NCBI GenBank assembly: GCA_937862865.1
Contig: CALMFJ010000036.1
Span: forward strand, 1-35,575
DNA length: 35,575 nucleotides
DNA from: an uncultured Pseudomonadota bacterium
GTDB taxonomy: Bacteria > Desulfobacterota > Syntrophorhabdia > Syntrophorhabdales > Syntrophorhabdaceae
Direction of reading: 5' to 3'
Below, piece after piece: positions 258 through 35,575 of the stretch. Within the stretch, counting starts at the first letter, position 1, and the number at the start of each line of letters is the position of its first letter. Under the pieces are notes generated by a model. It was not told the DNA's origin. It ran no database searches and saw only the letters and a program-made list of their open reading frames with translations. Position numbers and translations under genes: made by a program.

Positions 258-551
258 ATGAAGATAAAGGTCAATGTCGATTCAAACCTCAGGATCAAGA
301 ATGTCTTTGAGCCCCCCCTCGAAGTCGAATTGAGAGACAACGAGAACACCCTGAAGGACGTCCTCGGAAAGCTGGCGGTAAAATATCCCTACCTTCGATT
401 CATCGAAAAGGGTGAAATGGGGGACGACCTGCATCATCTCTACCTCAACGGCGAGAACCACTTTTCGTTCTCCGAAGGGCTGAAAAGAAAGGTGAGCGAA
501 GGCGACACGGTCCGCGTCGAGGCCTACATGGACCCGTTGGCGGGAGGGTAG
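258..551 (+). CDS. MoaD/ThiS-family ubiquitin-like sulfur carrier protein
   Basis: This is a small beta-grasp protein of 97 residues ending in the diagnostic Gly-Gly tail (MDPLAGG). In MoaD and ThiS that tail is adenylated by an E1-like enzyme and then thiocarboxylated to donate sulfur for molybdopterin or thiazole synthesis. The start at 258 was chosen because GGAGGT sits 7 nt upstream. An upstream in-frame start at 129 would run through a palindromic repeat and adds nothing family-like. Length is somewhat above the usual 80-90 residues. No moa, thi or cys gene is adjacent. The only E1 candidate in the window is the ThiF/MoeB-like protein at 7534, so pairing with it is an inference. A role in tungsten/molybdenum cofactor synthesis or in a dedicated thiolation pathway are both possible. 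Confidence 0.82.
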   Translation: MKIKVNVDSNLRIKNVFEPPLEVELRDNENTLKDVLGKLAVKYPYLRFIEKGEMGDDLHHLYLNGENHFSFSEGLKRKVSEGDTVRVEAYMDPLAGG

Positions 552-558
552 GAAAGAC

Positions 559-590
559 CGTTCCGCGTTCTACGTTCCGCGTTCTACGTT
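559..590 (+). repeat. Heptamer tandem array (TTCYRCG type), 4 units
   Basis: Four 7-nt units alternate TTCCGCG and TTCTACG, starting 7 nt after the sulfur-carrier stop codon. The reverse-complement family is found at 651-702, so the two arrays form an imperfect inverted pair between two convergent gene ends. The pair could fold as a long bidirectional 3'-end hairpin. Confidence 0.85.
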
Positions 591-650
591 AAAAACATCA
601 AGACCTACCGAAATTTCTTGACTTAAAAAAGAGAATGCCTTCCTGTCGTT

Positions 651-702
651 AACGCAGAACGCAGAACGCAGAACGCAGAACGCAGAACGCAGAACGCGGA
701 AC
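651..702 (+). repeat. Heptamer tandem array (AACGCAG), 6 perfect units plus variants
   Basis: Six consecutive perfect AACGCAG units (651-692) are followed by AACGCGG and a decayed AACCGCC. The array ends 8 nt before the stop codon of the minus-strand binding-protein gene at 711. Unit length 7 is not a multiple of 3, so the array is not a coding repeat. Confidence 0.9.
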
Positions 703-710
703 CGCCCCCC

Positions 711-1523
711 TCATTTCGCGGGGGCGTTTGTGCCGAGCCATTTCCGGGCGGTCCGGGTTACGGTGCCGTCCTTTTTCATTTCTTCAAGGACCTTGTTCAC
801 CGCGTTGCGCAGGGCGGCGTCCGTCTTGCGGAAGCCGACGCCGTAGGACTCTTTTCCGAAAGTGTCGCCGAGCATGACAAAGGCATCAGGCCTCTTTGTT
901 ATGGTGTAACGGGCGATCACCTCATCGAGGACCACCGCGTCGACGAGGCCGGTCTCGAGGTCCTTAAGGGCAAGCTGGTTCGTTCTGTATACCGATATGT
1001 CCTTCAGGGAGTTGATGACCCCGGGATCGGAGGTGATCCATTTTTCGCTCGATGCACCGCGCTGAAAGCCGACCGTTTTCTGCTTGAGGTCACTTTTACG
1101 GGCAATGTCCGACCCTTTCTTCACGACGATCACCTGGCGGCTTTCAAGATATGGTTGAGAGAAGAGCATCTGGTGTTCCCTTTCGGGGAGGATCGACAGC
1201 CCGCTCCATACGATGTCGATATCACCCGTGTTCAAGCGGGGGATCGTCTTGTCCCAGCGTATCGGTCTGAACTCGGCCTTGAGCCCGAGACGCTCGGCCG
1301 CATTCCGTGCAAGGTCGATATCGAGCCCGGCGACCTCTTTCGTATCGGGGTCCCGAAAGGTCATCGGGGGGAAGGCATCATTGATCCCCACTATCAGAAC
1401 GCCGCGGGCCTTGATATTTTCAAAAGACCGGTCAATGCCGGGCTGCGCACCCCCCTGCGCAAACGCCCCGGAGCACAAGACAGAAATAGACAGCACAACG
1501 AGGATTGCGTTCATTATTCTCAT
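711..1523 (-). CDS. Periplasmic amino-acid-binding protein (SBP_bac_3 family)
   Basis: This is a 270-residue family-3 solute-binding protein of polar amino-acid ABC transporters (the GlnH/FliY/ArtJ group). An N-terminal signal peptide has hydrophobic segment AILVVLSISVL and likely cleavage after AFA at about residue 22, so the protein should act in the periplasm. Family hallmarks are GVLIVGINDAFPPMTFRD, AGLDIDLARNAAERLG, the GDIDIVWSGLSILPER segment and the C-terminal EEMKKDGTVTRTARKWLG. There is no lipobox. The start at 1523 has AAGGGG upstream, and a strong promoter lies at 1563-1591. No permease or ATPase gene is adjacent, so the protein is an orphan in this window. It either feeds a transporter encoded elsewhere or serves a sensory role. 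The ligand cannot be told from sequence alone; an amino acid is likely. Confidence 0.88.
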   Translation of the reverse strand: MRIMNAILVVLSISVLCSGAFAQGGAQPGIDRSFENIKARGVLIVGINDAFPPMTFRDPDTKEVAGLDIDLARNAAERLGLKAEFRPIRWDKTIPRLNTGDIDIVWSGLSILPEREHQMLFSQPYLESRQVIVVKKGSDIARKSDLKQKTVGFQRGASSEKWITSDPGVINSLKDISVYRTNQLALKDLETGLVDAVVLDEVIARYTITKRPDAFVMLGDTFGKESYGVGFRKTDAALRNAVNKVLEEMKKDGTVTRTARKWLGTNAPAK

Positions 1524-1612: not shown

Positions 1613-1644
1613 AACGTAGAACGTAGAACGCGGAACGCAGAACG
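1613..1644 (+). repeat. Heptamer tandem array (AACGYRG), 4.5 units
   Basis: Units read AACGTAG, AACGTAG, AACGCGG, AACGCAG and AACG. The array abuts, with one nucleotide between, the stop codon (1646-1648) of the minus-strand hotdog gene. It lies between that gene's end and the promoter of the binding-protein gene. Confidence 0.88.
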
Positions 1645-4673: not shown

Positions 4674-5573
4674 TCATGCCGTCATAACGGATGCCTGCAC
4701 ATCTTCTTTCTCGTACATGGCCAGTTCCCTGAGCATGCTCAGCTTATGCGCGCTCGTGATGTCCGGGGGGTACAGCCTGCCGTTGATCCTCAAGCCGACC
4801 GGCACACTGTTCTTGAGGAGCTGTATGATCGTGTACGCAACGCAGGAGATCTTTTCTTCAATGTCGCGTATCATGACATTGTCGAATTCTATGACAACCG
4901 GCTGGTATGAGAGGGATGACAGCTCTTTCGTCTTGAGCTTCCCCGTCTTTGCCGTCGCCTTCCAGTGAATGTATTTGATCGGGTCCCCGCGGACATATTC
5001 CCGTATGGATAGGACATCGGCATCGTAACCGATCGCGTCGGACACCTTCTCCCCGCGCGATCTGCGCTCGCTGCGGTACAGGCTTGCCAGGTCGCAGGCC
5101 TTGAGCCTCGGCAGCACGATGATCGTGTATGTCTTTCCAAGCGCCTTGTAGCGTGTGAAAAAATTGAACGGGAAGACGGAAGAGACGAGCGGGTTTTCGA
5201 TCGTATGAAGCCCTCGCTCACGAAAGGTTATATTGGCAAAGGCGGACGATGTGCCCTTTCCCGGCGTAAAAGGGAGAAGCACGGAGATCCGGCCGGCCTT
5301 GAGGCTGATGAGAAAGGCCGGCAGGTGCCTGCGCCGGTTCTCCATCGTTATTTTGACGGGGACCTGACTGCCCGCGTAGACCTCCTGCGGGAAATCTATC
5401 CCGAGGTCGAGCCTCGAAAGATTGGCCTTTCCAAAAAAACCGGAGATGCTCATAAAGCTCAAGAGCCCCGATACGATCAGGAAAACCAGGTTGTTGTTGG
5501 TGTTTGCGGCGGCGATGCCCATAAAGATCGTGATCACTATGTAAAGGAACCCGGCTTTCGATATCTTGATCAC
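4674..5573 (-). CDS. DUF58 domain-containing membrane protein
   Basis: The protein has 299 residues. Two adjacent hydrophobic segments (about residues 8-24 and 28-46) anchor it, and the rest is the DUF58 domain with a von Willebrand A-like fold. The hallmark REYVRGDPIKYIHWKATAKT is at about residues 191-210. DUF58 proteins work with MoxR AAA+ ATPases and transglutaminases, as here. The start is GTG at 5573, overlapping the MoxR stop by 4 nt (GTGA), which points to translational coupling. No metal-binding MIDAS motif (DxSxS) is evident, as is usual for DUF58. The family is clearly recognised; the biochemical role in the envelope is not settled. Confidence 0.9.
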   Translation of the reverse strand: MIKISKAGFLYIVITIFMGIAAANTNNNLVFLIVSGLLSFMSISGFFGKANLSRLDLGIDFPQEVYAGSQVPVKITMENRRRHLPAFLISLKAGRISVLLPFTPGKGTSSAFANITFRERGLHTIENPLVSSVFPFNFFTRYKALGKTYTIIVLPRLKACDLASLYRSERRSRGEKVSDAIGYDADVLSIREYVRGDPIKYIHWKATAKTGKLKTKELSSLSYQPVVIEFDNVMIRDIEEKISCVAYTIIQLLKNSVPVGLRINGRLYPPDITSAHKLSMLRELAMYEKEDVQASVMTA

Positions 5574-6523
5574 AGGGGTGTTGAAACGGTGTCTACGATC
5601 GATCGCACAATCTCCCTTTTGTTGAGGTTCTCGTACTCTTCCTTAAAGATGACGCGGTGAGGGATGGTATATTCGACGAGGTCCCTGATGTCTTCGGGAA
5701 TGACAAAATTCCTGTCGTGGAAAAAGGCGTGTGACTTTGCCGTATTGATGATGGTCAGCGCACCCCGGGTCGACAGTCCGGCGGAAAGGTATTCGCTTGT
5801 CCGCGTTGCCTGGATTATGGAAAGGGTGTACTCGAGGATCTTGTCCGAAACATGAACGCCACGGGAGATCTCGTCCTGTATGCGCGTCACATCGTCCTGG
5901 TCGACAACGGGCTCGATCAGGTATATGTCTTCCCGTTTGCTCCCGATCTTGAGGATCTCTTTCTCCGCCTGCCGCGATGGGTACCCTATACTGATCTTCA
6001 TCATGAACCTGTCGAGCTGGGACTCCGGAAGGGGAAATGTCCCGAACTGCTCGGCGGGGTTTTGCGTTGCAATGACACAGAAGATGCGCGGCAGCTTATA
6101 CGTCTTTCCTTCTATGGTCACCTGCTTCTCTTCCATTGCTTCGAGAAGGGCGCTTTGTGTTTTCGGGGTTGCGCGGTTTATCTCGTCGCACAGAACGATG
6201 TTGTTGAAAATGGGGCCGGGGTGAAAATCAAATTCGCCGGATGTCTTGTTGTAGATGGACAGGCCCGTTATATCGGTGGGGAGCAGGTCACTCGTGCACT
6301 GGATCCTGCCGAACGTCAGGCCGAGAGATTTGGCTATACCGATGGCGAGGGTCGTCTTGCCGAGGCCGGGCAGGTCCTCGATGAGCAGGTGCCCCCGTGA
6401 GAAGAACGAGATCAGGGAAAGGCTGAGCGGTTTTTCTTTGCCCTGCAGGTACGATGACAGGGAATCGGTTATCGTGTGGACCTTGTTGATGTCCGTTCCT
6501 ATAGCGAGCTCTTTGCCGTCCAT
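5570..6523 (-). CDS. MoxR-type AAA+ ATPase
   Basis: This is a 317-residue MoxR-family ATPase (AAA_3 plus lid domain). Walker A is LPGLGKTT (about 51-58) and Walker B is IVLCDEINRA (about 109-118). The family segments QSALLEAMEEKQVTIEG and FCVIATQNPAEQFGTFPLPESQLDRF contain sensor 1 and the arginine finger region. Family-wide these act as chaperones that assemble or activate partner proteins, usually VWA or DUF58 proteins, consistent with the overlapping DUF58 gene downstream. The ATG at 6523 was chosen because family homology begins just after it. The reading frame stays open far upstream on this strand (to 7501), but that part is antisense to the DUF2156 gene and is not MoxR. It heads the minus-strand operon. 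No strong Shine-Dalgarno is visible. Confidence 0.92.
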   Translation of the reverse strand: MDGKELAIGTDINKVHTITDSLSSYLQGKEKPLSLSLISFFSRGHLLIEDLPGLGKTTLAIGIAKSLGLTFGRIQCTSDLLPTDITGLSIYNKTSGEFDFHPGPIFNNIVLCDEINRATPKTQSALLEAMEEKQVTIEGKTYKLPRIFCVIATQNPAEQFGTFPLPESQLDRFMMKISIGYPSRQAEKEILKIGSKREDIYLIEPVVDQDDVTRIQDEISRGVHVSDKILEYTLSIIQATRTSEYLSAGLSTRGALTIINTAKSHAFFHDRNFVIPEDIRDLVEYTIPHRVIFKEEYENLNKREIVRSIVDTVSTPL

Positions 6524-6587
6524 GAAAGAATTGTAGCATAAAATCCTGTTCGATGGGAATCGGCAAGCATTCATGGGCCTCGTATCC

Positions 6588-6616
6588 TTGACAAAACGGA
6601 GCATTTCGGCTTGAAT
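6588..6616 (+). promoter_or_regulatory. Possible promoter for the DUF2156-thiF operon
   Basis: TTGACA (6588-6593), 17 bp, then TTGAAT (6611-6616). Transcription would begin near 6622-6624, exactly at an in-frame ATG (6623), so the message might be leaderless. This competes with a TTG start at 6611 that overlaps the -10 and has GGAG 8 nt upstream. Both cannot be right. Confidence 0.4.
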
Positions 6617-7537
6617 AGGGAAATGGGCTTTGTTCCGCTGTTTCCTGATTTCAAGCCGATCACAATCGATGACAGGCGGGGCATCATAGATATCCTGCGG
6701 AGCAACTGGCCCGGGACGTCCGAACTTACGTTTACCAACCTCTTTATCTGGAGAAGACATTACGGTCTGTACTGGTGCCTTTACAGGGACTGCCTCTGTG
6801 TCATCGGCAGGGAGAACGCGGGGCCCGATTTCGCCATGGCCCCTGTCGGGCCGTCGGGAAGGCTCGAAGCCGGTATTGCCGTCCTCGAATGGCTTAGGGA
6901 AACGAAGGGCGTTCCCGCTCCTGCCATAGAGCGCGCCGATGAAGGCCTCGTCCGGGAGGCCTCCCGCTCTGCACATCTTCTGGCCGAAGAGAAACGGGAA
7001 CATTTCGATTACGTCTATCGTACGCAGGAGCTCATCAGCCTGGCGGGAAATAAGCTGAGGAGCAAGCGCAACAAGGTCCACCAGTTCATCCGGTCGTATG
7101 GATCGTACACATACGAGGAGCTGAGCGAAGGCCACATCGAGGCGGCACTCGACCTCCACGAAAAGTGGTGCCGTTTCAAACGGTGCGAAGAGGACCTTAA
7201 TCTTCTGGGAGAGTGGGATGCCACACGTGAGATACTGAATAATTACAGGGAGCTTGAAGTGGCCGGAGCGGTGATCATCCTGGATGGGCAGGTGAAGGCC
7301 TTTACCCTCGGCGAGCCCCTTCCGGGTGATGCCGCGCTCATCCATATCGAGAAAGCGGACCCCTCCGTGCCGGGGCTCTATCAGCTTATCAACCAGCAGT
7401 TCTGCGCCCGCAGATGGAACGATGTGACCTTCATCAACCGTGAGCAGGACCTGGGGCTGCCGGGGTTGCGCGAGGCGAAGCTTTCCTACAATCCCGATCA
7501 CTATGTCAGGAAATACTCGATCACCCTGAAAGGATGA
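6611..7537 (+). CDS. DUF2156 (phosphatidylglycerol lysyltransferase C-terminal-like) protein
   Basis: The 308-residue protein matches DUF2156, a double-GNAT fold related to the catalytic domain of MprF/LPG synthase and to FemX-like aminoacyltransferases. Recognisable segments are FKPITIDDRRGIIDILR and SELTFTNLFIWRRHYGLYW near the N-terminus. Further on are KRNKVHQFIRSYGSYTYEEL in the middle, VAGAVIILDGQVKAFTLGEPL and a C-terminal FINREQDLGLPGLREAKLSYNPD. There are no membrane helices, so it is cytosolic and lacks the MprF flippase part. It overlaps the thiF-like gene downstream by 4 nt. The start is uncertain: TTG at 6611 (GGAG 8 nt upstream) or ATG at 6623. Substrate unknown; aminoacyl or acyl transfer is plausible from the family. 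Confidence 0.85.
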   Translation: MNREMGFVPLFPDFKPITIDDRRGIIDILRSNWPGTSELTFTNLFIWRRHYGLYWCLYRDCLCVIGRENAGPDFAMAPVGPSGRLEAGIAVLEWLRETKGVPAPAIERADEGLVREASRSAHLLAEEKREHFDYVYRTQELISLAGNKLRSKRNKVHQFIRSYGSYTYEELSEGHIEAALDLHEKWCRFKRCEEDLNLLGEWDATREILNNYRELEVAGAVIILDGQVKAFTLGEPLPGDAALIHIEKADPSVPGLYQLINQQFCARRWNDVTFINREQDLGLPGLREAKLSYNPDHYVRKYSITLKG

Positions 7538-8319: not shown

Positions 8320-8325
8320 AGAAGG

Positions 8326-8343
8326 TTCTACGTTCTGCGTTCT
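8326..8343 (+). repeat. Short heptamer array between convergent stop codons
   Basis: Two units TTCTACG and TTCTGCG plus a degenerate third fill the 24-nt gap between the thiF-like stop (8317-8319) and the ThDP-enzyme stop (8344-8346). It belongs to the same family as the arrays at 559, 651, 1613, 14914 and 26888. Confidence 0.8.
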
Positions 8344-10759: not shown

Positions 10760-11233
10760 TTGATTGTCAGAACACCCACAAAATTTTTTCTCGTCAGTGG
10801 TTCTTCCGACGGTTTTTCTCTATTGAACGCCTTTGACGGCGCCCTTCTGGCGTCCGGCGTCGGCGACACCAACCTCGTAAGAATGAGCAGTATCCTCCCT
10901 CCCGGCTGTACCGAGATCAAACCCCGGCCGACGGCGCTTCCCCAGGGGGCCCTCGTTCCCGTTGCTTACGCGTCGATAACAAGCGATGTCCCGGGTGAGG
11001 TAATATCGGCGGCGGTTGCGATAGGCATTCCCGAGGATGCAAGCCTCGCGGGCCTTATCATGGAATATTCGGCCAGGGCGGACGAAGCCGCCGTTCGCAG
11101 CCAGGTGATAAAAATGGCCGAAAAAGGAATGGAAGTAAGGAAACGGCCGATCCGGGAGATAATGTCGATATCGTCCACGTTCAGGGTAGAGAGCGTGGGG
11201 GCGGCGTTCGCCGGGGTCGTCCTGTGGGATTAA
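10760..11233 (+). CDS. pdaD: Pyruvoyl-dependent arginine decarboxylase
   Basis: The enzyme converts arginine to agmatine plus CO2 using a self-generated pyruvoyl group. The proenzyme cleaves within VGDTNLVRMSSILPPG. By family precedent the bond between Ser43 and Ser44 breaks, and Ser44 becomes the pyruvoyl end of the alpha chain. Downstream family segments are LPQGALVPVAYASITSDVPG and AGLIMEYSARADE. The chosen TTG at 10760 has GGGAGGT 7 nt upstream and gives 157 residues, near the family length of about 155-165. Earlier in-frame starts (10703) would run through the leader and lack homology. It is the first enzyme of the polyamine cluster. The next gene, agmatinase, uses its product. The two are separated by a 205-nt inverted-repeat element. 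Confidence 0.92.
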   Translation: MIVRTPTKFFLVSGSSDGFSLLNAFDGALLASGVGDTNLVRMSSILPPGCTEIKPRPTALPQGALVPVAYASITSDVPGEVISAAVAIGIPEDASLAGLIMEYSARADEAAVRSQVIKMAEKGMEVRKRPIREIMSISSTFRVESVGAAFAGVVLWD

Positions 11234-11437
11234 TCCAATTCTCTATCGAAACCAGCTCTTCGTTGCCTGCAGCGCCCCAGATCCTCAACGGGCCACCCGC
11301 TGGAGCAAGCTTGGAAAGCGGGTACCCGGCTTTCAGTGTACGCCTCCGGTCTGGGCCGCCTTGTCGCAATAATGACCGGGTAACCGACGTCCAAGCTTGC
11401 TCATGTCGGGTGGCAAGGCTCCGATAGAGAATTGGAT
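11233..11437. repeat. 205-nt inverted-repeat element between pdaD and speB (MITE-like or structured RNA)
   Basis: The ends are perfect 16-bp inverted repeats: ATCCAATTCTCTATCG at 11233-11248 and its reverse complement at 11422-11437. Inside is a second inverted pair of about 40 nt sharing GCCACCCG, then GAGCAAGCTTGGA, then a CGGGTACCCGG-like part. The left copy is about 11291-11331 and the right copy about 11371-11413. The whole unit starts at the last base of the pdaD stop codon and ends 33 nt before the speB GTG. It encodes no plausible protein. Either a miniature inverted-repeat element inserted in the operon, or a regulatory RNA domain, would look like this. Confidence 0.7.
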
Positions 11438-11470
11438 CGATGCAAACAAAAAAACATAGAGAAGGATGAG

Positions 11471-13580: not shown

Positions 13581-14912
13581 ATGCGTTCCGCCCGGCAGAC
13601 CATAGATGCCATTCGTGCCGGTGACCTCTCGGGGGCCGCTTCCTATCATGAACTGCCGGACCGCGCACGGCGCGCGGTCCTCGTGTCCTTCAATGACGCA
13701 GACCTCCCATTATTGACCCGCCTTATCAACGATTGGCGCCGCACTCTTTTCGCCCGCGGCGAGGAGCGGTTCCGCGCGATAGCGAAGGGCCGCATCAGGA
13801 CACCCGTCTATCTCATGCATGAGGCGCTGATCGAAGAGAACATGCGGACCTTGCGGTACGTGAAGGACCGCACGGGATGCCGGATACTTCATGCCCTCAA
13901 GTCCTACGCCTCGTTTGCCACCTTCCCGGTCATGACGCAGTACCTTGACGGGGTGTGCGCCAGCGGCGTCTATGAGGCGCGCCTCGGCCGCGAGAAGTTC
14001 GCGAAAGAGGTCCATACCTTCGGGGCGGCATACAAGAAGAGCGAGATGCGGGACATCCTGAGATATTCGGACGTTGTCGTCTTCAATTCGTTCCATCAGC
14101 TTGATATATACGGGGATGCGGCCCGCAGGACAGGCCGGGGCATCGGGCTCAGGGTCAATCCCGGGTATTCGGAGATCGCAACCCCGATGTACGATCCCTG
14201 CGCCCCGTGCTCACGGCTCGGGGTCGTGCACAACGAATTTGCGGGCGCCTTCCCGTCCCGCTCCCGCCTCATCGACGGCCTGCATTTCCACGCCATGTGC
14301 GAGCAGGGCTCCGATGTCCTCGAAAGGGTCCTGGGATCGTTCGAAAAACTATACGGGCCGTTCATAAAAGACCTCGCATGGGTCAACTTCGGCGGCGGCC
14401 ACCACATCACACGGGATGACTACGACATAGAAAGGCTTGTCAGGCTCATAAACGGTTTCAAACGGAAGTACGGCGTGCAGGTTTACCTCGAACCGGGCGA
14501 AGCGTCCGTGTACCACGCGGGGGCCCTCGTATCCTCGGTGATCGATATCGTGAAGAACCAAATGGAGATAGCCATCATGGACGCGTCGGCAGAGGCGCAC
14601 ATGCCGGACGTGCTCCTCATGCCGTACCGGCCGCACATCTTCGGTTCGGCCGGGCCCGGCGTCAAGGCCCATACGTACCGGCTTGCCGGCCCCAGCTGCC
14701 TGGCGGGCGACACCATCGGGGACTATTCATTTGATGCGCCCCTTCAGCGGGGCGATAAAGTGGTCTTCACGGATATGGCCCTTTACAGCATCGTAAAAAA
14801 TACGACGTTCAACGGTATCGCCCTTCCCGGCATCGCAGTGATCAGAACGGACGGCACGGTGGATACGGTGAAGCGGTTCGGGTACCGGGATTATAAGAAC
14901 AGGCAATCGTAA
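13581..14912 (+). CDS. nspC: Carboxynorspermidine/carboxyspermidine decarboxylase with extended N-terminus
   Basis: This PLP-dependent fold-III decarboxylase turns carboxyspermidine into spermidine. The PLP lysine is Lys107 in ILHALKSYASFATFP. Further landmarks are GLRVNPGYSEI, GLHFHAMCEQ, VNFGGGHHIT, LEPGEASVYHAGAL and the dimer-active-site cysteine in GPSCLAGD. The protein has 443 residues against about 380 for Vibrio and Campylobacter NspC, where the lysine is near position 41. About 66 extra residues therefore precede the barrel (ARQTIDAIRAGDLSGAASYH and a predicted helical LLTRLINDWRRTLFARG). The ATG at 13581 follows the dehydrogenase stop by 8 nt. This is the last gene of the polyamine cluster, and a heptamer array begins immediately after its stop. 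Confidence 0.92.
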   Translation: MRSARQTIDAIRAGDLSGAASYHELPDRARRAVLVSFNDADLPLLTRLINDWRRTLFARGEERFRAIAKGRIRTPVYLMHEALIEENMRTLRYVKDRTGCRILHALKSYASFATFPVMTQYLDGVCASGVYEARLGREKFAKEVHTFGAAYKKSEMRDILRYSDVVVFNSFHQLDIYGDAARRTGRGIGLRVNPGYSEIATPMYDPCAPCSRLGVVHNEFAGAFPSRSRLIDGLHFHAMCEQGSDVLERVLGSFEKLYGPFIKDLAWVNFGGGHHITRDDYDIERLVRLINGFKRKYGVQVYLEPGEASVYHAGALVSSVIDIVKNQMEIAIMDASAEAHMPDVLLMPYRPHIFGSAGPGVKAHTYRLAGPSCLAGDTIGDYSFDAPLQRGDKVVFTDMALYSIVKNTTFNGIALPGIAVIRTDGTVDTVKRFGYRDYKNRQS

Positions 14913-14913
14913 G

Positions 14914-14970
14914 AACGCAGAACGTAGAACCTGGAACGTTTTATAACGCAGTCCGCAGTCCGCAGTCCGA
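14914..14970 (+). repeat. Mixed heptamer array (AACGYAG then TCCGCAG)
   Basis: Units AACGCAG, AACGTAG and AACCTGG start 1 nt after the nspC stop. After a short TTTTAT interruption the array resumes with AACGCAG and then two TCCGCAG units. The second part keeps the 7-nt period but changes the first two bases, a snapshot of unit drift. Confidence 0.85.
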
Positions 14971-17486: not shown

Positions 17487-17487
17487 C

Positions 17488-17529
17488 GACAGGCGACAGG
17501 CAATAGGCGACAGGCAATAGGCGATAGGA
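17488..17529 (+). repeat. Heptamer tandem array of second family (RAYAGGC), 6 units
   Basis: Units are GACAGGC, AATAGGC and GATAGGA in mixed order, beginning 1 nt after the CoA-transferase B stop. A trailing GGTGATG doublet (17539-17552) keeps the 7-nt period. An inverted array follows at 17583. Confidence 0.87.
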
Positions 17530-17582
17530 AAGAAGAAGGGTGATGGGTGATGAAAAAAAGCCTTCTGTGTGATGGAGTTTTT

Positions 17583-17614
17583 CCTATAGCCCATTGCCCA
17601 TAGCCCATAGCCCG
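17583..17614 (+). repeat. Heptamer tandem array, inverted partner (CCYATAG)
   Basis: Units CCTATAG, CCCATTG, CCCATAG and CCCATAG read as CTATGGG-type units on the other strand. They are inverted relative to 17488-17529 with a 53-nt spacer. This is the same architecture as the 559-590 / 651-702 pair. Confidence 0.85.
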
Positions 17615-20882: not shown

Positions 20883-20957
20883 GGGCGGGTAGCTCAGCGG
20901 GAGAGCATCGGCCTTACAAGCCGGGGGTCGCAGGTTCAAAACCTGTTCCGCCTACCA
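20883..20957 (+). tRNA. tRNA-Val (anticodon TAC)
   Basis: The 75-nt cloverleaf has acceptor GGGCGGG paired with TCCGCCT (G-U at both ends), D arm GCTC/GAGC and anticodon stem TCGGC/GCCGG around loop CTTACAA. The T arm is GCAGG/CCTGT with loop TTCAAAA, discriminator A, and encoded CCA. The anticodon UAC reads valine GUA codons. Confidence 0.95.
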
Positions 20958-20964
20958 TTTACGC

Positions 20965-21042
<78 letters not shown>

Positions 21043-25125: not shown

Positions 25126-26886
25126 ATGCCGTACGATGCGACGAAAATGGCGGACTGGCAGATATCGGAAGCCGCCGAGGAAAGTATGAAGACCATCTGG
25201 CAGCTTCGCGACGAGATGGGGCTTCAGGGCGACGAAGTGATACCGTATGGGAAGATGGGCCGGCTCAACTATGCCGCCATCATGGAGCGTTTCAAGGACA
25301 GGCCCAACGGCAAATACATCGATGTGACCGCAATAACTCCGACGCCCCTCGGGGAGGGCAAGACGACAACGACGATCGGCCTTCTCGAGGGCCTGGGAAA
25401 ACGGGGCCGGCTTGTCGGCGGCGCGATCCGCCAGCCGTCGACGGGGCCGACGATGAACGTGAAGGGCAGTGCGGGAGGCGGGGGGAACGCGCAGGTCGTA
25501 CCCCTGACGGAGTTTTCCCTGGGCCTGACCGGCGATATCGACCGCATCATGAACGCCCACAACATAGCAATGGTTGCGCTTACCGCACGGATGCAGCACG
25601 AGCGGAATTACAGCGACAAAGAACTGGAAAAAAGGGGCCTTAAGCGCCTCGATGTCGATCCTACGAATATCCAGATGGGCTGGGTCATCGATTTCTGTGC
25701 ACAGGCCCTGCGCAATATCGTTGTCGGGATGGGCGGCAGGATGGACGGTTTCACGATGCAGTCGCATTTCGACATCGGGGTCAGTTCCGAGCTGATGGCG
25801 ATACTATCGATCGTCCGGGACCTCAAGGACCTGCGCAAGCGCATCGGCGAGATCACCGTTGCATACCGCAAGAACGGAGACCCTGTGACGACCGAGGACC
25901 TCGAGGTCGCCGGCGCCATGTGCGCGATCATGAAAGACACGATCAACCCCACGCTGATACAGACGGTCGAAGGCCAGCCCGTCATGGTCCACGCGGGGCC
26001 CTTTGCCAATATAGCCATCGGGCAGTCGTCGATCATCGCCGACCTCCTGGGGCTCAAGCTCTTCGATTACCATGTCACCGAGAGCGGTTTCGGCGCGGAC
26101 ATCGGCTTCGAGAAGTTCTGGAACGTAAAGTGCCGGTTGAGCGGGCTGAAACCGAACGTTTCCGTGATAACGGCCACGATACGCGCGCTCAAGATGCATG
26201 GCGGCGGCCCCCGCGTCGCGCCCGGCATCCCGCTTCCCATGGAATACACGCATGAGGACCTGAAGCTCCTGGAGAAGGGGATCCCCAATCTGCTCCATCA
26301 CATCCGCATCGTCAAGATGTCCGGCATGAAGCCCGTTGTCTGCATCAACAAGTTCACGACGGACACGAAGGACGAGATCGCCCTCGTCCGCCGGTTCGCG
26401 GAAAGCGAAGGCGCCCGCGTCGCGGTCTCCGAGCAGTGGCTGAAAGGCGGGGACGGGGCGCTGGAGCTGGCGGACGCCGTGATCGACGCCTGCAGCGAAA
26501 ACGTCGAGTTCGGGTACCTCTACCCCCTCGAGATGCCTCTCATGCAGAGGGTGGACGTGATCGCCAAGAACGTGTACGGCGCCGACAGCGTCCTGTGGAT
26601 CCCCGAGGCGGAAGAGAAGGCCCGACGCCTCGAGAACGACCCGGCAAAAGGCGATTATTTCACCATGATGGTGAAAACGCACCTGAGCCTCTCCCACAAG
26701 CCCGAGTTAAAAGGCGTGCCGAAGGGATGGCGCCTGCCCGTCCGCGACGTCCTCGTCTTTACCGGCGCGAAATTCCTCTGCCCCGTCACCGGCGCCATAA
26801 GCCTCATGCCCGGCACCAGCTCCGACCCCGCCTTCCGGAGAATTGACGTGGATGTGGAAACGGGGAAGGTAAAGGGACTGTTCTAG
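25126..26886 (+). CDS. fhs: Formate-tetrahydrofolate ligase
   Basis: ATP-dependent activation of formate to 10-formyl-THF, the second step of the methyl branch of the Wood-Ljungdahl pathway or, reversed, an ATP-yielding step in formate production. The P-loop is [16 protein letters not shown] (about 71-86). Further signatures are [40 protein letters not shown] and [19 protein letters not shown]. The C-terminus ends [18 protein letters not shown]. The ATG at 25126 has GGAG 6 nt upstream and gives 586 residues, slightly over the usual 557-560. The longer in-frame start at 25069 lies inside the promoter -10. No other C1 gene is adjacent. Its stop is followed by a heptamer array. Confidence 0.96.
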
Positions 26887-26887
26887 G

Positions 26888-26914
26888 TTCTACGTTCCGC
26901 GTTCTACGTTCCAC
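26888..26914 (+). repeat. Heptamer array overlapping the end of a convergent gene
   Basis: Units TTCTACG, TTCCGCG and TTCTACG plus a degenerate TTCCACG, starting 1 nt after the fhs stop. The minus-strand gene ends inside the array: its stop codon TAG (26892-26890) and its last codons are made of array units. Confidence 0.87.
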
Positions 26915-27468
26915 GGTTCTTTCTTAATGATCTCCCCCGTTTTTACGGAGAAGGTGTAGCTGATGCCGTCTACGGTTTTCAGGAAGACCGTGCCTTCTTT
27001 TTCGTTGTACTTGAGGTCGGTGCGCCAGAAGAAATGGCTTACTGTGTGCTTTAGCGCGTCGGTGTCTTTGACGAGGTCGGAGATGGCGTATTGTTTCAGC
27101 TCTTTTCCGTCCTCGTAGAAGGCGAGGGCGAGGTCCCTTGTGGATTGCGCCCAGGGCCCCAGCCTGACGACGTGTTTCCCGTCGGAGCTCAGGTAAACAC
27201 TGAAGGAATACCAGTACACTTTCCAGAGCGGTTCGCGCGATCCATCGTTCCTGTACAATCCTGAATATTTATACACCTTCCGTATTTCGGGTTCCTTTGA
27301 TGACCAGCGCGGCCCGTCGGGCGCAAGCATGACGAAGATGTATGCGCCGCCCTGTGTCTCTTTCGTGTAGTCGGTCGGCGGCATTTCCGAATCGGCCAGG
27401 ACCGGCGCGGCAAGGCTCATTGAGAGCGCGATGAGGAATGCGAGGCTTATTATTCCGAAAAGTTTCAT
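26890..27468 (-). CDS. Secreted hypothetical protein
   Basis: The 192-residue protein is of unrecognised family. A clear signal peptide (MKLFGIISLAFLIALSMSLA, cleavage probably after VLA near residue 26) sends it to the periplasm. The mature part is polar and beta-rich by appearance, with YIFVMLAPDGPRWS and VYWYSFSVYLSSDGKHVVRL; the pattern FLKTVDGISYTFSVKTGEII looks like a beta-strand repeat. The ATG at 27468 has AAGGAGG 4-5 nt upstream. The final residues (PWNVERGT) are encoded by a heptamer array, so the natural C-terminus may have been replaced or extended. Probably monocistronic, from the promoter at 27495-27523. Confidence 0.78.
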   Translation of the reverse strand: MKLFGIISLAFLIALSMSLAAPVLADSEMPPTDYTKETQGGAYIFVMLAPDGPRWSSKEPEIRKVYKYSGLYRNDGSREPLWKVYWYSFSVYLSSDGKHVVRLGPWAQSTRDLALAFYEDGKELKQYAISDLVKDTDALKHTVSHFFWRTDLKYNEKEGTVFLKTVDGISYTFSVKTGEIIKKEPWNVERGT

Positions 27469-35481: not shown

Positions 35482-35552
35482 AATGGGGTGATAGGCGATG
35501 GGCAATAGGCGATGGGCTATAGGAGATAGGTAATGGGTTATGGCTTAGGGGT
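35482..35552 (+). repeat. Heptamer tandem array of second family (RATRGGC), about 10 units
   Basis: Units GATAGGC, GATGGGC, AATAGGC, GATGGGC, TATAGGA, GATAGGT, AATGGGT and TATGGCT in 7-nt register. The longest array in the window, and the only one not adjacent to a stop codon inside the window. Confidence 0.87.
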
Positions 35553-35575
35553 TACTGGGAGAGGCGGTCGGATAT

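Follow-up and report, generated by a model that had tools for sequence, protein, structure and literature searches.

Heptamer arrays as putative arms of 3'-end hairpins in a Syntrophorhabdus-like bacterium, and the change of their unit between sister species

Over-represented heptamer repeats have been known in bacteria for years and have no accepted role. In cyanobacteria, short tandemly repeated heptanucleotides (STRR) form arrays at multiple loci, with several families in one genome, an arrangement shared by the bacterium described here. In Xanthomonas campestris and X. citri/axonopodis, dispersed GGGAATC heptamers have been read as G-quadruplex elements (Rehm et al., 2015, PMC4692102). Each genome holds 70-75 convergent inverted pairs, and the repeats are rare between divergent genes; sense-strand arrays lie less than 50 nt from the stop codon and antisense arrays farther away, at positions largely kept across the two species (PMC4692102). 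Few facing pairs were found among the heptamer repeats of Nostoc (PMC4692102). In Geobacter metallireducens, elements of four GGGACCG units are present in 49 copies within and between genes and are predicted to be regulatory RNA elements (PMC2700814). These are likewise dispersed tandem heptamers of a deltaproteobacterial (Desulfobacterota) genome, but the passages that describe them mention neither stop anchoring nor facing pairs, both of which occur here (PMC2700814). The TAACTGA repeats of marine Beggiatoaceae are also abundant intergenic direct heptamers of patchy distribution; they lie mostly just upstream of start codons, unlike the present arrays, with one indirect repeat in the genome (PMC4679880).

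The arrays described here resemble those of Xanthomonas in being dispersed intergenic heptamers that form facing pairs and stand in sense orientation right after the stop. Xanthomonas, however, has one G-rich unit in both species, whereas here each genome has several units, mostly non-G-rich; the elements are specific to transcription-unit ends, carry A/T flanks and, at orthologous stops, have had their unit replaced from one sister species to another. A first-pass annotation had proposed an undescribed system, which was too strong a claim, since stop-proximal heptamer inverted pairs have been known in Xanthomonas since 2015 (PMC4692102). What is added here is the non-G-rich units and their switching at orthologous gene ends; species-specific replacement of this kind was not found in the literature searched, nor did the search find a paper on tandem repeats in Syntrophorhabdus. 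REP, REPIN and BIME elements are comparable as high-copy extragenic palindromes with proposed roles in termination and mRNA stabilisation. They differ from the present elements, the arms of which are short tandem repeats of a species-specific unit, and for which neither a link to RAYT nor a common core palindrome was seen.

Arrays in the window and across the genome

The DNA analysed (the window, 35,575 nt in full) is contig C36 of a 2.64-Mb MAG of 172 contigs that is 96.5% complete. The host is taken to be Syntrophorhabdus-like because proteins of Syntrophorhabdus sp. PtaB.Bin184, UBA5329, UBA5756, UBA1386, Delta_02 and bin-237 match the window's trigger factor at 72-85% identity. The arrays given in Table 1 were located with Tandem Repeats Finder and by scanning for period 7 (the first family C array being called as 17487-17552). 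All those reported by the first-pass annotation are in place, at distances from the stops that were correct to within 1 nt. On the stops themselves (551, 711, 1646, 8319, 8344, 14912, 17486, 26886 and 26890) the open reading frames and a gene caller concur. The caller is a simple hexamer/codon model trained on this genome (coding fraction 0.91); it over-extended the gene at 5570-7501, which leaves the arrays unaffected. The arrays at 17583-17613 and 35487-35554 adjoin no stop. The region 14912-14969 is peculiar in holding the window's only reversed-polarity stop-adjacent array, followed by a second, unrelated heptamer. Rfam identifies two tRNAs only in the window, adjacent RF00005 genes at 20883-21039, just downstream of a clpX-like gene.

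Table 1. Arrays, arms and loops of the window (positions in nt)
Feature	Position	Strand	Remarks
Family A arm (CGTTCYR)n	559..590	+	Outside-in, 8 nt past stop 551; first arm of facing pair in convergent gap
Loop (spacer) of family A hairpin	591..650		Unique: single copy in 844 kb
Family A arm	651..702	-	Outside-in, 8 nt from minus-strand gene stop 711; second arm of the pair
Lone family A arm	1613..1644	-	Outside-in, 1 nt from minus-strand gene stop 1646
Short family A array	8325..8343	+	Fills the 24-nt gap between convergent stops 8319/8344
Family A array	14912..14937	-	After plus-strand stop 14912, opposite polarity; resembles a distal arm standing alone
Minor heptamer array (CGCAGTC)3	14947..14969		
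Family C arm (RATRGGC)n	17487..17528	+	Directly after stop 17486; first arm of pair, upstream of trigger-factor gene
Loop (spacer) of family C hairpin	17529..17582		
Family C second arm	17583..17613	-	Followed by conserved trigger-factor promoter block (CTATTGCTAATTT)
Family A array	26880..26915	+	Overlaps last codons of gene ending 26886; extends over convergent stop 26890
Family C array	35487..35554	+	Contig end; 241 nt from 5' end of minus-strand gene ending 35245

Genome statistics were drawn from 51 stretches of the same genome, 844 kb together. These contain 122 period-7 arrays, 117 of them intergenic, while the control periods 4, 8, 11 and 13 give no array and periods 5 and 10 give 1-2. 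Three main families dominate in place of the two proposed at first: A, AACGYRG (54 arrays); B, AACGGCT (20); and C, RATRGGC (38). A CRISPR array was rejected as a candidate, since it requires direct repeats of 20-50 nt and unique spacers, and the units here are of 7 nt and stand head to tail.

The anchoring of arrays to stop codons, as against random intergenic placement, holds across the sample: among 81 testable arrays, 47 are no more than 10 nt from a stop, compared with a mean of 22.8 and a maximum of 34 when arrays are placed at random in the same gaps (2000 trials). The commonest distance is 2-9 nt. At some loci the array overlaps the gene end and provides the stop codon, as in the window, where the TAG of the gene ending at 26886 belongs to the array starting at 26880 (GTTCTAG); another example reads ..GGCTAACGGC. 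The density of 122 arrays per 0.84 Mb compares with 39 per 0.31 Mb in a sister species (G004), in a sample that includes contigs selected for holding arrays, and with 15 per 1.09 Mb at 63 loci of distant bacteria. Of 89 contig ends, 12 have an array no more than 60 nt away, where 1.9 would be expected. Because contig breaks of the MAG assembly coincide with arrays in this way, the array copy numbers and lengths given here are lower bounds, and the repeats probably help to fragment these MAGs.

Paired arms at transcription-unit ends

A motif scan found 179 arms. Among neighbouring arms on opposite strands less than 250 nt apart, there are 55 facing pairs, all outside-in and of a single family (23 of A, 28 of C and 4 of B), against one outward-facing pair and no pair of mixed family. 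Inverted partners accompany 53% of the arrays here and 51% of those in G004, and none when these arrays are moved to random context. Read in the sense of the gene, the stop-proximal arm is CGTTCYR, TAACGGC or RATRGGC, and 52 of the 57 arrays no farther than 10 nt from a stop have this outside-in polarity. Of the 179 arms, 69 are unpaired; unpaired arms adjacent to a stop keep the rule in 39 of 45 cases. The first-pass annotation had connected the arrays with a 3'-end process; their link to gene 3' ends is strongly supported genome-wide, whereas the inverted pairing into hairpin arms and the fixed polarity had been missed.

The composites are predicted to fold stably, with mean z scores of -7.0 (A), -5.2 (B) and -7.2 (C). 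Just past the second arm (positions 2-6; families A and C) the frequency of T is 0.43-0.68 against a background of 0.26, and A is enriched upstream of the first arm. With about 3.6-4 T per 8 nt past the stem, the T content is above background, yet the runs are broken and symmetric; they are weaker than those of textbook terminators, and many loops are long. Where genes lie in tandem, the A-run preceding the near arm equals the T-run that follows the far arm, so that the element appears symmetric and not tuned to one direction.

Arms follow the 3' end of 36 of 88 convergent genes and 36 of 189 tandem genes where the gap is at least 60 nt, and only 2 of 351 operon-like ends (gap below 30 nt; 0.6%). 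The elements share with intrinsic terminators a predicted stable hairpin at transcription-unit ends. A generic terminator finder reports a canonical hairpin with a T-run at 27% of array-free and 8% of array-bearing convergent ends; these are small numbers, suggestive of arrays substituting for canonical terminators there. A geometry that is facing, of one family, anchored to stops and placed at unit ends points to RNA 3' ends.

Window positions 11225-11445 also hold a 220-nt near-palindromic element, which begins at the stop codon of another gene (end at 11233). It lacks tandem repeats, has the outer arms CCAATTCTCTATCG / CGATAGAGAATTGG and a predicted RNA fold of -103 kcal/mol, and is present once in the sampled genome, with 80% identity over 143 nt to a sequence in L123.

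Unit words and hairpin slots in sister species

Is it the word or the architecture that related genomes share? Other species of the genus contain tens to hundreds of array matches, the units of which are quite different and include a 9-mer. In pattern searches, the places counted exceed the arrays because they overlap inside an array. Counted in this way, AACGYRG (A) occurs at 291 places here, 21 in G004 and 0 or 1 elsewhere, and RATRGGC (C) at 184 places here, 14 in a genome of another genus (G022) and at most 3 elsewhere. CGTRAAT (D) is found at 140 places in G004 and GGTYYCA (E) at 100 in G010, 86 in G002, 72 in G005, 33 in G001 and 26 in G006; the 9-mer YTCAAGCSR (F) is found at 133 in G006, 113 in G002, 43 in G001 and 31 in G005. 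Patterns D, E and F are all absent here, and E also from G004. Reversed-pattern controls over whole genomes give no match for D, E and F in this genus nor for A and C here; the control for C matches as many as 26 places in G020, a genome of another genus. The searches thus show words particular to each species of the genus. The 14 places in G022, which is of the same family, include a long array (C77:7634-7713), and most other genera of that family are without the pattern.

In G002, within regions selected for holding arrays, 81 of the 84 GGTYYCA and 9-mer arms are intergenic, facing pairs outnumber outward ones by 27 to 2, and 38 of 39 arms near a stop are outside-in. Since 7-mer and 9-mer arms follow the same rules, the shared feature is the architecture and neither the word nor its length. 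Facing pairs of the nonamer CCGCTTGAR with arms of about 40 bp were also observed in L124, L126, L127 and G006_L112:380-499, and arrays of the 9-mer GGTTTRTYY and the 8-mer TCAAACTT in G008_L115. G002 and L127 (Delta_02) are probably one genome and L122 may be G004, and these are not to be counted twice.

Orthologous stops were compared mainly in G003, G004 and six named loci. Of 31 comparisons in which the stop here bears an array, 12 show a period-7 array at the orthologous stop too, compared with 9 of 222 for array-free stops (odds ratio 15, Fisher p = 2e-7; the rows are not fully independent, because several represent one gene in several relatives). At shared sites the unit usually differs. 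The gene ending at window position 26886 carries GTTCTAC here, a GGTTATG-type unit in L125 and CGTCACA in L127; the gene end orthologous to the site at 8325 has a CGTAAAT array in L122. At the slot L088:152, RATRGGC here corresponds to CGTAAAT in G004, and the TTCTTTATTGAAATCA... block that follows is conserved. Similarly, the trigger-factor promoter block, from TTGCTAATTT, is conserved across seven loci, and the hairpin beside it is built of RATRGGC here, of a GGTAAT-type unit in L123 and of the 9-mer in L124, L126 and L127. In the same slot the hairpin of L125 shows no clear tandem repeats, and L122 keeps a remnant only.

Orthologous stops that lack an array have a stable predicted hairpin, with a median z of -2.85 compared with -0.14 at the remaining tandem unit ends (p = 0.001) and +0.16 at operon-internal stops (p = 4e-5). 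Compared with orthologs of convergent ends that bear no array, their hairpin strength showed no significant difference (p = 0.53, n = 10). Since orthologous stops without arrays keep stable hairpins, the slot would belong primarily to a hairpin and only secondarily to repeats. At orthologous stops, as read from the sequences, the predicted hairpin persists while both arms are rewritten.

Putative role and spread of the unit

Geometry, polarity, stop anchoring, location at unit ends, A/T flanks, conservation of the slot and replacement of the unit are features of the sequences themselves. They are probably best accounted for if each array is an arm of a dispersed hairpin element that follows directly on a stop codon, closes a transcription unit and serves transcripts from either side, with a unit spread by a copying process. 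Such an element would consist of an A-rich flank, (unit)n outside-in, a loop that in most cases measures 4-122 nt, a second (unit)n in reverse complement and a T-rich flank. In RNA, the arms could pair in any register, and the hairpin would act at the 3' end in both directions, by intrinsic termination, by protection of the mRNA 3' end or by both, which on sequence grounds is the most likely reading of the arrays. The unit would be spread or homogenised genome-wide by copying, and arms may grow until coding sequence stops them, which would give the tight edge at the stop codon.

Alternatively, the arrays could be functionless dispersed repeats of neutral or selfish spread, tolerated in promoter-free 3' regions and growing until they meet a stop codon. 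Their lineage-specific, explosive copy numbers, which differ among species of one genus, would fit this, as would the symmetric flanks in tandem contexts and the many unpaired arms. Tolerance, however, predicts neither same-family facing pairs nor a fixed polarity in at least four families, and neither the 0.6% occurrence inside operons nor a hairpin at the orthologous slot of species without the array. This explanation is thus considered unlikely, although it deserves real weight.

The composites also recall REPIN-like mobile elements moved by a Y1/HuH transposase (RAYT), being inverted pairs with a loop, intergenic and of high copy number. About eight family A elements even have a common 72-nt spacer (75-89% identity) and appear to be dispersed as a unit. 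Yet spacers are mostly unique, only this subgroup and one family B pair sharing theirs, which argues against one ordinary mobile element. A PF01797 gene is present once in this genome and absent from G002, which is 98% complete and has 199 pattern places; there are no arrays at eight examined transposase loci, and inspection of more than 50 element ends revealed neither a conserved core palindrome nor a constant tetranucleotide foot at the hairpin base. The RAYT link was rejected, as the transposase does not track with the repeats, and mobility of this kind is very unlikely. A REP-like palindrome, GGATCCCGGCTTTCGCCGGGATGACG, is present in the window at 101-140, with at least 10 dispersed relatives in the genome and others in G004 and G006; the core GATTCCGGC..GCCGGAATGACG, related to it, forms the spacer of the roughly eight family A elements.

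Slippage-based repeat addition, raised by the first-pass annotation, would have the polymerase generate heptamers locally and independently at each site. Heptamers are over-represented among the simple repeats of bacteria, and the footprint of the polymerase has been put forward as a cause (discussed in PMC4692102). Slippage alone nevertheless fails to explain one unit common to about 100 loci in one species and replaced in its sisters, two arms that are always of the same family, or the 9-mers of sister species. It is highly improbable as the origin of the arrays, but may still change their copy number. RNA-templated addition, which the first-pass annotation also named, may contribute. Least probable, and barely to be entertained, is a common basis in G-quadruplexes as proposed for the GGGNATC repeats of Xanthomonas and Nostoc: family C does have some GGG tracts and a G-rich stop-proximal arm, but no GGGNATC unit with four G-tracts was encountered, families A, B, D, E and F are without GGG tracts, and CGTTCYR, CGTRAAT, GGTYYCA and YSGCTTGAR keep the pairing order and polarity without them.

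For the favoured 3'-end hairpin element, the surprising part is the replacement of the unit genome-wide at the species level. Within a hairpin, the two arms resemble each other no more closely than arms taken from separate hairpins do (p = 0.16-0.71 in five sets; 0.07 and 0.38 in a first version), which indicates that homogenisation is genome-wide and that copying within a hairpin is not its sole source. It is possible, if only as a tentative proposal, that 3'-end hairpins are present throughout the genus and that both arms are periodically rewritten across the genome to a new species-specific word of 7 or 9 nt by an undescribed copying process. Candidate routes would be the transfer of single-stranded DNA hairpins, template switching at ectopic sites or the use of RNA as the template. 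If this holds, terminators would keep their places while their sequences are under concerted evolution. Unit switching at orthologous stops offers a natural comparative system for the homogenisation of dispersed non-coding repeats in a bacterium that has no evident transposase.
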